NCBI GenBank assembly: GCA_030262715.1
Contig: JAJSZR010000008.1
Location: forward strand, 1 to 37,799
DNA length: 37,799 bases
Origin: Deltaproteobacteria bacterium
GTDB lineage: Bacteria > Desulfobacterota > Dissulfuribacteria > Dissulfuribacterales > UBA3076
Reading direction: 5' to 3'
Under the pieces are notes generated by a model. That model was not told the DNA's origin and made no database searches. It worked only from the letters and a program-made list of their open reading frames with translations. Made by a program: the position numbers and the translations under genes. This document shows, in pieces, positions 2 to 18,908 of this stretch (position 1 is the stretch's first letter; the number at the start of each line of letters is the position of its first letter).

Positions 2-325
2 ATGCAGAGTGACATTGCCAGCTTAAGTAAATTACATATCCTTGAGGCCCTTTTGGAGAAAGGATATAAGAGTGATCTTGTCGGAAAGGCTCTCAACAAA
101 TTAGTGGAGCTTGAGCTTGCCAAATTAAAACGTGAACTGACAGAAATTGAAACCAGAATAGAAAAACTAGAAGCAAAATACGATATGGATTCCGAGGAGT
201 TTGCTGAAAAATTTCATGCCGGTCTGGCGGATGATTCCGCGGATAATATCGAATGGATATCTTTTCTTGACATGCGGACGGCGCTTTTCCAGAAAATTGG
301 ACTTCTGCAGGAAGAAAGCGCTTGA
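2..325 (+). CDS. TumA-like antitoxin (putative), possibly 5' truncated by window edge
   Basis: The visible product is 107 residues, soluble, with a predicted coiled coil at about residues 35-60 (charged ELAKLKRELTEIETRIEKLE region). I see no catalytic motif. The reading frame is open to the first base of the window, so the true start may lie outside. Its stop TGA overlaps the ATG of the next gene by one base, so the two are translationally coupled. The downstream product looks like a TumE-family (DUF6516) toxin, and small helical partners encoded just upstream are what one expects for its antitoxin. The antitoxin role is therefore inferred mostly from position; the toxin assignment is stronger than this one. 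Confidence 0.6.
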   Translation: MQSDIASLSKLHILEALLEKGYKSDLVGKALNKLVELELAKLKRELTEIETRIEKLEAKYDMDSEEFAEKFHAGLADDSADNIEWISFLDMRTALFQKIGLLQEESA

Positions 326-741
326 TGAACGCTGAAACGTATTTGATGAACCTCAAGGTCAAGCTTGCGGTCAGCAGTTCCATCCAATCAGTTGAAATTA
401 TTGATGAGAGAATCGTTCTTTCCGACCGTGGTTATTTCAGGGCACGGCTTGTTCTGGCAAATAGTGATTTTCTGGAAATTTCAGAATATTTTGTATGTGA
501 AGATGAGGAGTGTTTTCCCAAAGCATACAGATATCAATGGATGGACAAGGAGCAAAAACAATTGATAAAGCGATGGGATAATGCCGAACACTTTCCCGGT
601 TTGCCTGGATTTCCTTATCATATCCATCTTGGCCGGGAGGACAATGTACAACCTTCCAAACCGATAAATAGCCTTGAACTTATTGATATTATCGAGGAAG
701 AAATCAAAGAAAAAATGTCCGTCAATCCCGAAGACACTTAA
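325..741 (+). CDS. TumE family (DUF6516) toxin of a toxin-antitoxin pair
   Basis: The 138-residue product has the layout I know for TumE/DUF6516 proteins: an N-terminal MNAETYLMNLK helix, a beta-rich middle, the YRYQWMDKEQKQLIKRWDNA block at about residues 72-91, and a PGLPGFPYHIHLG block at about 93-105 followed by an acidic tail. The conserved Arg-Trp-Asp-Asn and His-Ile-His residues are presumably functional, but the target is not known to me. A TTG three bases upstream is in frame; I chose the ATG because it overlaps the upstream stop codon (TGATG), the usual coupling arrangement in toxin-antitoxin operons. Calling it a toxin follows from the family name and the pairing, not from a visible active site. 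Confidence 0.7.
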   Translation: MNAETYLMNLKVKLAVSSSIQSVEIIDERIVLSDRGYFRARLVLANSDFLEISEYFVCEDEECFPKAYRYQWMDKEQKQLIKRWDNAEHFPGLPGFPYHIHLGREDNVQPSKPINSLELIDIIEEEIKEKMSVNPEDT

Positions 742-2538: not shown

Positions 2539-3846
2539 CTATTTTAATAATGTCCCAAAAGCCATTCCTTTTTCAGCCTTTGTGATCCGGACCGGAAGGA
2601 CCTGGTTTTTAAGGTCTGTCCGATCTCTTTCGGTCTCAATCAGCACAGGGATATAGTTTGGAGTGAGTCCTCGCCACAGACCAGACTCTTTGTCTTTCTG
2701 CTCCACAAGGCACTCAAATATTTTATCTACATGGGAACGGTAAAAGGCCTGTTTTTTCTCACTTCCCAGGTCCCTGACAGCCCGGCCTCTTTTCGCTTTT
2801 TCTTTTTTGGGTACCATATCGTTCATTGCTGCAGCCACAGTCCCGGGCCTGGGGGAAAATGGAAATGCATGGACATAAGTAATGGGGAGTTCTGAGATCA
2901 ATTCCATTGTCTTTTCAAAGGCAGGCCCATCTTCCCCTGGAAACCCGACCAGCACATCTGCCCCTATGGCTGCCTCAGGCATGGCAGCCCTCAATTCCAT
3001 AATCAGGTTTCTATAATAGGAAGATGTGTAATGTCGGTTCATCAGTTTCAGGATTTTATCAGAACCGCTTTGCAAAGGAATGTGCCAGTGCGGGCAGAAA
3101 TTTGGGGTGGATCTTGCCCACGATATCATGTCCGAAGTGAGTTCTGAGGGTTCTATGGAGCTTAAACGAAATCTCAACTGAGGAAAGACCGCGCATAGCC
3201 TTTTTAACAGGTCCAGAAGGGTGAACTTTTCCGACAGGTCCTCACCGTATATACCTATGTGAATCCCGGTAAGCACCACCTCCTTTATCCCTTCCTGAGC
3301 CACAGTCTTGACCTGTTTTTCCACCAACTCAGGGACGAGGCTCCTGCTCCTTCCCCGGGCATAAGGTACAATGCAGTAAGTGCAAAAGGAATTGCACCCG
3401 TCCTGAATACGCACAAAAGCCCTGGTCCTTCCCAATTGTCGTCTCACAGTAAAGGGCGTAATGGTTGTAACTCTGGAAATATTGCCAATATAGAATTCCA
3501 GGCCGTCTTCGATCTCAAAAGCAAGGTCTACAAGTTGCGCCTTTTGGTCATTTCCCACGAGACATACCTGGCCTGGAACAGCTTCCAGGATCTCCTGGGC
3601 TGCCACCTGGACATAACAACCAGTGGCTAAGACTCGTGATCTTTTTCGGGATCGCCTCAATCTTCTGAGTATCTGTCTTGACTGATAGGCAGCCCTTGAA
3701 GTCACAGTGCAAGTATTTACGACATAGATATCAGCTTCCTGAGTGTAATTGACAATATCCGCTCCTTTTGAGATAAAACCCTCTGCCAGGGCAGCAGTTT
3801 CAAACTGATTGACCTTGCACCCGAGAGTGTAAAAGGCTACCCGCAT
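2539..3846 (-). CDS. mtaB: tRNA (t6A37) C2-methylthiotransferase MtaB
   Basis: This radical-SAM enzyme converts t6A to ms2t6A at position 37 of ANN-decoding tRNAs. The 435-residue protein has the full methylthiotransferase layout. The N-terminal UPF0004 domain carries C10, C46 and C77 (TLGCKVNQFE, NTCTVT, TGCYVQ) for one [4Fe-4S] cluster. The radical-SAM motif CNSFCTYC (C151, C155, C158) binds the second. A C-terminal TRAM-like region follows. The short length and TLGCKVNQ start favour MtaB over MiaB or RimO. Its start overlaps the mnmA stop by 10 bp, so it is the last gene of the long minus-strand operon and is probably coupled to mnmA. Both products act on the tRNA anticodon loop. Confidence 0.93.
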   Translation of the reverse strand: MRVAFYTLGCKVNQFETAALAEGFISKGADIVNYTQEADIYVVNTCTVTSRAAYQSRQILRRLRRSRKRSRVLATGCYVQVAAQEILEAVPGQVCLVGNDQKAQLVDLAFEIEDGLEFYIGNISRVTTITPFTVRRQLGRTRAFVRIQDGCNSFCTYCIVPYARGRSRSLVPELVEKQVKTVAQEGIKEVVLTGIHIGIYGEDLSEKFTLLDLLKRLCAVFPQLRFRLSSIEPSELTSDMISWARSTPNFCPHWHIPLQSGSDKILKLMNRHYTSSYYRNLIMELRAAMPEAAIGADVLVGFPGEDGPAFEKTMELISELPITYVHAFPFSPRPGTVAAAMNDMVPKKEKAKRGRAVRDLGSEKKQAFYRSHVDKIFECLVEQKDKESGLWRGLTPNYIPVLIETERDRTDLKNQVLPVRITKAEKGMAFGTLLK

Positions 3847-4919
3847 ATCGGACCACCGCCAAGTACCAGATCATCCAGATAAAAGACTGCGAATTGACCT
3901 GGTGTTATGGCCCATTGATTTGAGAAAAAACGGACACGAACCTTACCGGATTCCAGAAGTTCCAACTTTGCCAAGCCCCCTGGGTGACGATAGCGTATCT
4001 TTACTGTACATGGCTGTTTAAGGGCCATATCAGGGGACACCAGCCAGTTTACATGTTCTACAAGGAGTTCTTCCGACCAGAGGCTGTGCTCTTTCCCCAC
4101 TACCAGCCGGTTGTTTTTCCTGTCCAGAGCAACCACGTAATACGGCGTTTTATCCGGGATACCAATACCCTGTCTCTGGCCTATGGTATACGCATATAGC
4201 CCTGCATGTCTTCCGAGAACCTTCCCATCTACGGTAATAATGTCTCCAGGCAGGTTATTGAAAAGACCTCTTTTTTCAAGAAAGGTCCGGTAATTACCTT
4301 TTAAAAAGCAAATTTCCTGGCTTTCTTTCTGAACTAAAGGAAAGAGGCCTGTTTCAGCAGCCCGTTTCATTACATCTTTCTTGGTGCGGTCTCCAAGTGG
4401 AAATATCAACCTCGGAATGGCCCCTTTAGGTATCTGGTGCAGAAAATATGACTGGTCCTTTTTTAGATCTTTTGCCTTGACAAGGCCTGTCTGACCATTT
4501 GAAAGCCTCTTTGTCCCGGCATAGTGGCCTGTGGCCAGATAATCAATGCCAAGCGAGTCTGCCAGAGAGAGACCAATGACTACCTTGATCCTGTTATTGC
4601 ATATTACGCAGGGGTTTGGGGTCAGACCCATATTATAGGATCTACTAAAGTATGAGATTACCTCGTTCTCGAATCTCTCTGCTTCATTCAGGCAGTGAAG
4701 TCTGATGCCGAGATGCTTTGCTACATTCTTTGCTGCAAGAAGACCTGTGCCGGATTGTCCTTCCGGAAGGATATTCAGGAAGAATGCCTCGGTATGCCAT
4801 CCGGCCTGAAGGAGATCATGGGCCGCGAAAGCGCTGTCCACCCCTCCGCTTAAGGCTACTAGAACAGATTTGTTTTTTGGCTCTGGGCTCTGGGCTCTGG
4901 GCTTTGAGCTTTTCGGCAT
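3837..4919 (-). CDS. mnmA: tRNA-specific 2-thiouridylase MnmA, CxxC-type
   Basis: MnmA adenylates U34 of Lys, Glu and Gln tRNAs and replaces the oxygen at C2 with sulfur. The 360-residue protein has the PP-loop SGGVDS (24-29), the NPCVICN block with C104 and C107, and the second catalytic-region cysteine C203 (SQEICFLKG), followed by the usual beta-barrel C-terminus. Classical MnmA has Asp at the C104 position; CxxC plus a distant Cys is the arrangement of [4Fe-4S]-dependent thiouridine synthetases. The first ~17 residues lie outside the domain and are partly encoded by a 7-bp tandem repeat. No alternative start lies before the PP-loop. It follows the ferredoxin gene by 6 bp and overlaps mtaB. 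Confidence 0.93.
   Translation of the reverse strand: MPKSSKPRAQSPEPKNKSVLVALSGGVDSAFAAHDLLQAGWHTEAFFLNILPEGQSGTGLLAAKNVAKHLGIRLHCLNEAERFENEVISYFSRSYNMGLTPNPCVICNNRIKVVIGLSLADSLGIDYLATGHYAGTKRLSNGQTGLVKAKDLKKDQSYFLHQIPKGAIPRLIFPLGDRTKKDVMKRAAETGLFPLVQKESQEICFLKGNYRTFLEKRGLFNNLPGDIITVDGKVLGRHAGLYAYTIGQRQGIGIPDKTPYYVVALDRKNNRLVVGKEHSLWSEELLVEHVNWLVSPDMALKQPCTVKIRYRHPGGLAKLELLESGKVRVRFFSNQWAITPGQFAVFYLDDLVLGGGPICG
4879..4906. repeat. 7-bp tandem repeat (x4) within the mnmA 5' end
   Basis: Four consecutive 7-bp units, GGCTCTG three times and then GGCTTTG, lie within codons ~5-14 of mnmA (CAGAGCC on the coding strand). The unit length is not a multiple of three, so gain or loss of one copy would shift the mnmA frame. 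Confidence 0.85.
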
Positions 4920-4925
4920 TCTGTA

Positions 4926-5354
4926 TCAGGCCAGGACTTTGTCCTTACTGAATCGGACTTCCATGGCCCTCACAGGGCAGACTGCCACACAGAGTTCGCA
5001 GCCTGTACATTCTCTGGGGTCAAAGATCACTTCCATGGTCTCCCGGTTCATGTACAGTGCATGACTAGGACAGATCCCGGTACAGACACCACACTGGTAA
5101 CACACATCATCATTCCTGCGAATTTCCTGTTCTACGGATTTAACGCCAACGCCCAGATCCTTCAGATAGCGAAGCCCATCCCTTACCTGTTTTTTGTGCC
5201 CGGAGAGTTCAAGTACCATAAGGCCTTCCCGGCCAGGGAGTATTTTTGCCTTGAGTATGTTAAAGCACAGATCATGTTTGCGACTGAGATTACAGATCAG
5301 GGGTTTATCTGTGATCTCCGGTGGAAAACGGAGGACAAGGACCTTTGTATACAT
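4926..5354 (-). CDS. NIL-domain 2[4Fe-4S] ferredoxin
   Basis: The 142-residue cytoplasmic protein has an N-terminal NIL (ACT-like) domain at about 1-75, as found in some methionine transporter ATPases and in ferredoxins. It is followed by two complete cluster motifs: CYQCGVCTGICP at about 84-95 and CTGCELCVAVCP at about 116-127. It should carry low-potential electrons. It starts 5 bp after mlaA and ends 6 bp before mnmA, so it is co-translated with the tRNA modification genes. A plausible but unproven job is electron or sulfur-related support for MtaB (radical SAM) or cluster upkeep in the CxxC-type MnmA. Similar proteins in other anaerobes are often annotated simply as 4Fe-4S binding protein. 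Confidence 0.9.
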   Translation of the reverse strand: MYTKVLVLRFPPEITDKPLICNLSRKHDLCFNILKAKILPGREGLMVLELSGHKKQVRDGLRYLKDLGVGVKSVEQEIRRNDDVCYQCGVCTGICPSHALYMNRETMEVIFDPRECTGCELCVAVCPVRAMEVRFSKDKVLA

Positions 5355-17888: not shown

Positions 17889-18908
17889 ATGTCCACCAAA
17901 TCACCAAATTCCCCCACCTGCCTGGTCCTTTATTCTGGCGGTCTCGACAGCATCATTGCCTGCAAAATTTTACAAGAGCAAGGGATTCATGTCATAGCCC
18001 TTTGTTTCATTACGCCATTTTTTGGTTATAAACTCAAAAGCAGAAAAAATACATCAAAGAAGAAAGTGCTTGCCGATCATGGTATACAATTCGAGGAAAT
18101 AGATATCTCCGATGCATACCTTAAAATGGTGAAGAATCCGAAACATGGCTATGGAAAATACATGAATCCATGTATTGACTGTAAAATTCTGATGGTCCAA
18201 AATGCCATAAAGAGGCTTGGGGAATTAAATGCATCCTTTGTCGCCACAGGAGATATCCTCGGCCAAAGGCCCATGTCACAGCGCAGAGATGCCCTCAGGA
18301 TAATAGAGCGGGACAGTGGTGCTGATGGACTGCTTTTACGTCCCCTCTCAGCCCTTCATCTCCCGGCCACAGACATAGAAAACAAGGGTCTGGTTGATCG
18401 ATCAAGGCTGCTGGGACTGAGTGGCAGAGGGCGAAAAGACCAGATAGTCCTTGCCGGCAGATATGGAATAAAAGAATATCCGGCTCCTGCTGGTGGATGT
18501 GTGCTTGCTGACCCCATACTGTCTCAGAGATTAAAACGCATGTTCGATCTTTGGCCCGAGCTTGATGTTAATGACTGCGTACTTGCCCAGATAGGAAGAC
18601 ACTTTTTCCTGCCTGGCGGATCATGGCTGGTAATCGGGAGAGACGAAAAGGAAAATGCGAAGATCATATCCCTGATAAGGAAAGGGGACATCAAGCTCGA
18701 TCTGGCACGAGTTCCTGGTCCAACCGGACTTTGGCGTAAGGTAAACACTGGCGCTTATACAGATATTGCGGCAAGCATCCTGTGCCGGTATACAAAAGTG
18801 AAAAAACATCCGGAAGAGGTCAAACTGTCAAGCCATGGAACTGAAAAGATAAAAATCATCAGAACTTTGCCAGCTTCAGATGATACTATAAATAGATATA
18901 GAATGTAA
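17889..18908 (+). CDS. ThiI/MnmA-like PP-loop tRNA thiolation enzyme with C-terminal NFACT-R-like domain
   Basis: The 339-residue protein has an adenylating PP-loop YSGGLDS (16-21 core), MNPCIDCK with C95 and C98, and a third cysteine in APAGGCVLAD (C204). This CxxC plus C triad is what [4Fe-4S]-dependent thiouridine synthetases use. The C-terminal part (about 225-300, with GRHFFLPGGSWLVIGRDEKEN) resembles the NFACT-R RNA-binding module. It is probably a tRNA sulfur-insertion enzyme paralogous to MnmA, often annotated as ThiI-like in Desulfobacterota; the modified base is not certain. It lacks the THUMP and rhodanese domains of classical ThiI. It sits 30 bp after recN. Confidence 0.75.
   Translation: MSTKSPNSPTCLVLYSGGLDSIIACKILQEQGIHVIALCFITPFFGYKLKSRKNTSKKKVLADHGIQFEEIDISDAYLKMVKNPKHGYGKYMNPCIDCKILMVQNAIKRLGELNASFVATGDILGQRPMSQRRDALRIIERDSGADGLLLRPLSALHLPATDIENKGLVDRSRLLGLSGRGRKDQIVLAGRYGIKEYPAPAGGCVLADPILSQRLKRMFDLWPELDVNDCVLAQIGRHFFLPGGSWLVIGRDEKENAKIISLIRKGDIKLDLARVPGPTGLWRKVNTGAYTDIAASILCRYTKVKKHPEEVKLSSHGTEKIKIIRTLPASDDTINRYRM

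Follow-up and report, generated by a model that had tools for sequence, protein, structure and literature searches.

A NIL/ferredoxin gene packed against mnmA and mtaB in a deltaproteobacterial genome: linkage to a tRNA thiolation gene and a probable role in homocysteine synthesis

Genes and features of the locus

We analyzed a 37,799-nt stretch of DNA (hereafter, the window; positions 1 to 37,799 of contig JAJSZR010000008.1, assembly GCA_030262715.1, Deltaproteobacteria bacterium), focusing on three genes that are transcribed from the minus strand in the order NIL-Fd, mnmA and mtaB and encode, respectively, a NIL/ferredoxin protein (NIL-Fd), a tRNA U34 2-thiouridylase and a radical S-adenosylmethionine (radical-SAM) tRNA methylthiotransferase. 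NIL-Fd and mnmA are separated by 6 nt, and the mnmA and mtaB reading frames share 10 nt. This tight packing had been described in an earlier note on the same DNA, which combined the three genes into an iron-sulfur-centered module for anticodon-loop modification. The features of the locus are:

4926-5354, minus strand: NIL-Fd, NIL/ferredoxin protein of 142 aa (Pfam NIL and Fer4), putative ferredoxin subunit of L-aspartate-semialdehyde sulfurtransferase (L-ASST)
5142-5342, minus strand: NIL domain of the MetN C-terminal type, putatively methionine-binding (PF09383, residues 5-71)
4962-5114, minus strand: 2[4Fe-4S] ferredoxin domain with eight invariant cluster cysteines (Fer4 models)
3837-4919, minus strand: mnmA (trmU), C-type tRNA U34 2-thiouridylase of 360 aa, without N-terminal CC (NF001138, TIGR00420, Pfam, fold match)
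4608-4610, minus strand: Cys104 codon, equivalent to Asp99 in E. coli MnmA (sequence, 2DER alignment, invariant in 31 relatives)
4599-4601, minus strand: Cys107 codon, equivalent to Cys102 in E. coli MnmA (same evidence)
4308-4310, minus strand: Cys204 codon, equivalent to Cys199 in E. coli MnmA (same evidence)
2539-3846, minus strand: mtaB, radical-SAM tRNA t6A37 methylthiotransferase of 435 aa (TIGR01579)

The NIL-Fd protein matches the Pfam NIL model (58.9 bits, 4.5e-16) and Fer4 models, with the NIL domain followed, in gene order, by the two Cx2Cx2Cx3C motifs of a 2[4Fe-4S] ferredoxin. All eight cluster cysteines (C85, C88, C91, C95, C116, C119, C122 and C126) are invariant in 29 relatives, among which the NIL domain contains no conserved cysteine and was therefore rejected as a candidate persulfide carrier; this domain weakly resembles that of MetN (2QRR, E 0.009). 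The same architecture is found in MA1822, which, together with MA1821 (DUF39/COG1900), constitutes L-ASST; in this enzyme, the ferredoxin part is the presumed source of electrons, and methionine binding is attributed to the NIL domain (PMC12068725). Furthermore, methionine rescues Desulfovibrio vulgaris Miyazaki strains mutated in the DUF39, NIL/ferredoxin or COG2122 genes (PMC5764234). The genome that contains the window encodes a single NIL protein, the NIL-Fd described here, and a single HcyBio (DUF39) protein (G000:C18:21221-22294, 501.6 bits); no convincing MetB, MetC or MetY was identified in it, the Cys_Met_Meta_PP matches being weak and non-specific (best, 32 bits). Thus, homocysteine synthesis in this organism plausibly depends on NIL-Fd. 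In this genome, HcyBio is flanked by a CxxC-bearing LarE-family PP-loop sulfurtransferase, a CBS-domain protein and an AIR-carboxylase/LarB-like protein (L140:4313-7961).

The mnmA product is a full-length MnmA equivalog (NF001138, 347.9 bits against a cut-off of 284; TIGR00420, 307.3 against 236.95) with all three Pfam domains of the family, PF03054 (HUP), PF20259 (PRC-barrel) and PF20258 (C-terminal). Its AlphaFold model (pLDDT 90.4) matches E. coli MnmA (2DET/2DEU) at a TM score of 0.88 and MnmA crystal structures in general at 0.83-0.88, with the [4Fe-4S] thiolases TtuA, NcsA and LarE coming next, at a distance. Among its cysteines (76, 104, 107, 204, 304 and 359), only C104, C107 and C204 are invariant in a 31-sequence alignment. 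A phmmer alignment places the active-site motifs NPCVICN (C104, C107) and SQEICF (C204) opposite NPDILCN and STGICF of E. coli MnmA (2DER), that is, opposite Asp, Cys and Cys, numbered D99, C102 and C199 in that enzyme (PMC11784392). The replacement of Asp by Cys reported in the earlier note is borne out, as are C104 and C107, and the protein has the ligand set of [4Fe-4S] C-type thiolases; the third conserved cysteine, however, is C204 rather than the C203 given there.

MnmA proteins are divided into D-type (C-DxxC-C) and C-type (CC-CxxC-C), and C-type enzymes that lack the CC motif are present in Campylobacter and Helicobacter (PMC11784392). The window MnmA has CxxC instead of DxxC and the third cysteine, as expected of the C-type, but no cysteine in loop residues 47-65, so that the N-terminal CC of the full CC-CxxC-C pattern is missing. 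Judging from these motifs, it is an ordinary member of the published C-type class, of the CC-less variety. The B. subtilis MnmA (9HLN) also has CxxC (NPCVMCN in a phmmer alignment). No cysteine desulfurase gene was found beside mnmA at this locus; a cysteine desulfurase-like gene is located elsewhere in the genome (G000:C104, 263 bits). The mtaB product is a TIGR01579 equivalog (411.9 bits against a cut-off of 357.05), and, like the C-type MnmA, this enzyme is an ordinary one of its kind.

Co-occurrence and gene linkage in Thermodesulfobacteriota

For the census, 108 genomes were drawn evenly from Thermodesulfobacteriota, and MnmA was found in 104. Calls of NIL-Fd were checked for the Fer4 part, with a few of the 80 judged by the NIL match and length only. 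All 104 MnmAs are of the C-type, with no D-type among them and hence no contrast between the two types within the phylum, so that adjacency to NIL-Fd is uninformative on the type of MnmA. Moreover, NIL-Fd was not found in 24 of these genomes, and the CxxC type is thus not tracked by the ferredoxin neighbor. Instead, after removal of NIL proteins without Fer4, NIL-Fd and HcyBio are both present in 79 genomes and both missing in 24, with one genome containing NIL-Fd only and none containing HcyBio only (Fisher 1e-22); independent contrasts on the MnmA tree run in the same direction in about 6 of 6 cases (p 0.03). Thus, the presence of NIL-Fd follows HcyBio, not CxxC MnmA. Among the control genomes, B. 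subtilis has no HcyBio although its MnmA is of the CxxC kind.

Several candidates were discarded in this count. The NIL proteins of G057, G082, G106, G013, G032, G050, G052, G080, G099 and G104, and the second NIL proteins of G004, G019, G041, G056 and G073, are NIL-only, fusions of a MoaD/SAMP1-like domain with NIL, or lack Fer4. Genome G046, an apparent case of HcyBio without NIL-Fd, was rejected as such, since a contig end next to mnmA truncates its NIL-Fd. At loci L145 (2263-2778), L148 (1834-2349), L273, L274, L275, L277 and L280, a MoaD/SAMP1-like sulfur-carrier domain is likewise fused to NIL, which suggests a link between NIL and thiocarboxylate-based amino acid synthesis.

The linkage of NIL-Fd to mnmA is nevertheless real: together with mtaB, the two genes make up a compact cluster that is conserved. 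In 27 of the 104 genomes, from 15 families, mnmA is preceded on the same strand by NIL-Fd at a distance of no more than 700 bp, compared to a chance expectation of well under one (a rough estimate for genomes of ~3 Mb), and the adjacency was gained or lost at least 11 times on the MnmA tree. In 10 genomes, NIL-Fd is next to both mnmA and HcyBio. Two loci (L086 and L116) read HcyBio-COG2122-NIL-Fd-mnmA, with mtaB next in L116 and the COG2122 genes matching PRK04334, and two others (L097 and L117) read COG2122-NIL-Fd-Rrf2-like regulator-cysteine desulfurase-mnmA-mtaB. Directly 3' of mnmA, mtaB was found in 52 of the 104 genomes; since ten of these have no NIL protein of appropriate size, mnmA and mtaB also pair independently of NIL-Fd.

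A scan of named genomes employed a narrower NIL-Fd alignment, the broad one being too diverse, and yielded 80 best loci that are biased towards relatives. At 40 of these, mnmA is present, in 39 cases close by on the same strand, and every readable mnmA motif is of the C-type; at six loci (L235, L240, L241, L242, L256 and L265), NIL-Fd directly precedes mtaB with no mnmA between. The closest relatives are metagenome-assembled genomes labeled Deltaproteobacteria or Thermodesulfobacteriota, UBA3076 and B4_G9 among them. A full-text literature search found no paper containing both "NIL domain" and "mnmA," and, as far as this search goes, the NIL-Fd-mnmA operon has apparently not been discussed.

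The MnmAs of the phylum differ in the N-terminal loop: 33 have CC, 65 were scored as lacking it (including that of G056, which is cut at the N-terminus and actually has CC), and six have ACYG or ACFG. The CC motif is associated with a cysteine desulfurase gene in the vicinity of mnmA (24/33 with CC versus 5/71 others; Fisher 1e-11), but there are only about five independent contrasts (3.4 in the same direction, 0 against; p about 0.25), too few to set aside shared ancestry, and we regard the association only as a lead. One speculative reading, weaker than the coupling of homocysteine synthesis to tRNA thiolation discussed below, would have CC mark those MnmAs that receive sulfur from a linked cysteine desulfurase and its absence mark those that take free sulfide. 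The six ACYG/ACFG proteins (G021, L134; G029, L101; G030, L107; G058, L129; G066, L118; G092, L120) lack the equivalent of E. coli C199, with SQDF where others have SQ(E/D)xCF. Each is the sole MnmA found in its genome, and the two that were scanned are both MnmA equivalogs above the cut-off; with ACYG or ACFG in the loop, a ligand or persulfide cysteine may have moved. In the mnmA genes of L201-L204, the motif is NCCCxCN rather than NPCxxCN, an extra cysteine replacing the proline before CxxC.

Elsewhere in the window, mla-type lipid transport genes (MlaA and MlaC, by Pfam) are located upstream of the cluster. At 17889-18908 (plus strand), there is a PP-loop protein with a ThiI/MnmA-like HUP domain and a C-terminal NFACT-R_2 RNA-binding domain, for which all NCBIfam matches are below cut-off. 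A small open reading frame followed by a TumE-like toxin frame (2-741, plus strand; NCBIfam TumE at 60 bits, short of the cut-off of 90) is a possible toxin-antitoxin pair.

Proposed role of the ferredoxin and chemistry of the thiolase

We interpret NIL-Fd-mnmA-mtaB as one version of a sulfur-use operon found widely in Thermodesulfobacteriota, with NIL-Fd belonging to homocysteine synthesis and not acting as a dedicated partner of MnmA, a reading that we consider about 75% probable. NIL-Fd is most likely the ferredoxin subunit of L-ASST and would serve homocysteine (methionine) synthesis as the electron-donating, methionine-sensing component, with its presumed catalytic partner, HcyBio, encoded elsewhere in the genome. 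MnmA is expected to adenylate O2 of U34 with ATP, the reaction carried out by the PP-loop domain in this family, after which a [4Fe-4S] cluster that has C104, C107 and C204 as ligands and leaves one iron site open may present sulfide for attack, yielding s2U34. Ligation of a cluster by these residues is predicted by analogy with the Thermus enzyme and from the conserved triad, whereas sulfide is the probable donor given the precedents of TtuA and NcsA and the lack of a desulfurase gene at the locus. By family function, MtaB would add the methylthio group to t6A37, and the three genes are presumably co-expressed since all use sulfur.

Several observations weigh against the assignment of NIL-Fd to homocysteine synthesis. 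NIL-Fd is more frequently a neighbor of mnmA (40 genomes, within 5 kb on one strand) than of HcyBio (31 genomes, within 1.5 kb). In the NIL-Fd tree, which was built from few columns and contains many weak forks, one clade is found only next to HcyBio, some members being also next to mnmA, but the larger clade is mostly mnmA-linked or unlinked; a purely homocysteine role leaves both the mnmA linkage and this clade unexplained. Finally, the single exception in the census, draft genome G019, has an mnmA-linked NIL-Fd and no detected HcyBio; in its family-mate G056, fragments of HcyBio were found at contig ends. However, HcyBio is also present in the genomes of the larger clade, which normally contain a single NIL-Fd; this clade must therefore serve HcyBio as well, and, mainly for this reason, we favor operon membership over a distinct second function as the explanation of the link to mnmA.

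In an alternative reading, NIL-Fd would be a shared hub that serves homocysteine synthesis and also gives electrons, or reduced sulfur, to MnmA and/or MtaB, and would hence be kept beside mnmA-mtaB by selection. Radical-SAM enzymes such as MtaB need an electron donor, NIL-Fd directly precedes mtaB at the six loci without mnmA, and the tight linkage to mnmA recurs in 15 families with at least 11 gains or losses. Nonetheless, we consider such a hub unlikely: the 24 C-type MnmA genomes manage without NIL-Fd, mnmA-mtaB pairs exist without it, and NIL-Fd is kept in only 1 of the 25 genomes that lack HcyBio; furthermore, the NIL domain has no conserved cysteine for sulfur carriage, and thiolation from sulfide needs no net electrons. 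A service of NIL-Fd to MnmA or MtaB is not favored. Also unlikely is the possibility that NIL-Fd is a shared methionine-responsive component coupling homocysteine synthesis to anticodon thiolation or methylthiolation through MnmA and/or MtaB; if true, methionine supply and tRNA sulfur modification would be set together. The dedicated iron-sulfur anticodon module of the earlier note, with NIL-Fd as the specific partner of CxxC-type MnmA, could draw on the adjacency and translational packing and on the fact that every adjacent mnmA with the motif region present is of the C-type. However, the C-type is the sole type in the phylum sample, adjacency accordingly says nothing on type, NIL-Fd follows HcyBio rather than MnmA, and B. 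subtilis combines CxxC MnmA with the lack of HcyBio. This module therefore appears highly improbable: the gene linkage on which it was built is conserved, but an association specific to CxxC mnmA is effectively nonexistent across the sampled genomes, which gives no support for assigning the ferredoxin to that enzyme.

For MnmA itself, the alternative is a cluster-free enzyme with classical persulfide chemistry on C204 and C107 as the resolving cysteine. The E. coli MnmA is disputed in exactly these terms (PMC11784392), and the genome of the window has the cysteine desulfurase-like gene noted above. Conversely, the Thermus enzyme, which is oxygen-sensitive, carries a [4Fe-4S] cluster and depends on it (PMC8584467), has the same CxxC-C set; in addition, Cys replaces Asp, a weak ligand, and no desulfurase gene lies beside the window mnmA. 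The cluster-free route accordingly strikes us as a minor possibility, and we prefer the sulfide-presenting cluster.

This analysis corrects an attractive misreading, in that methionine synthesis is the best assignment for the ferredoxin encoded next to mnmA. In addition, it records a recurrent operon in sulfate-reducing-type bacteria that brings together homocysteine synthesis, cysteine desulfurase, tRNA thiolation and methylthiolation. If the linkage between NIL-Fd and mnmA is functional, it would allow the source of sulfur for C-type MnmA to be studied in a simple genetic system.

Comparison with known systems

The window MtaB shows no notable difference from the t6A37 methylthiotransferases covered by TIGR01579. 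The window MnmA shares family membership, CxxC and the third active-site cysteine with the Thermus thermophilus C-type MnmA (Shigi et al. 2020, summarized in PMC8584467 and PMC11784392), from which it differs, on these accounts, by lacking the N-terminal CC of the Thermus form (CC-CxxC-C). With the D-type E. coli MnmA (DxxC-C), it has in common the fold (TM 0.84-0.88), the domains and the counterparts of C107 and C204, whereas the E. coli enzyme has Asp99 in place of C104 and is fed by the Tus relay. Finally, NIL-Fd shares with the L-ASST systems (MA1821 and MA1822; DvMF_1464 and DvMF_0262 of Desulfovibrio) the NIL plus 2[4Fe-4S] ferredoxin architecture and the presence of one copy with one HcyBio. 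Unlike in those systems, the CBS domain is encoded by a separate open reading frame next to HcyBio (L140:6158-6760), and NIL-Fd is encoded beside mnmA-mtaB rather than beside HcyBio.

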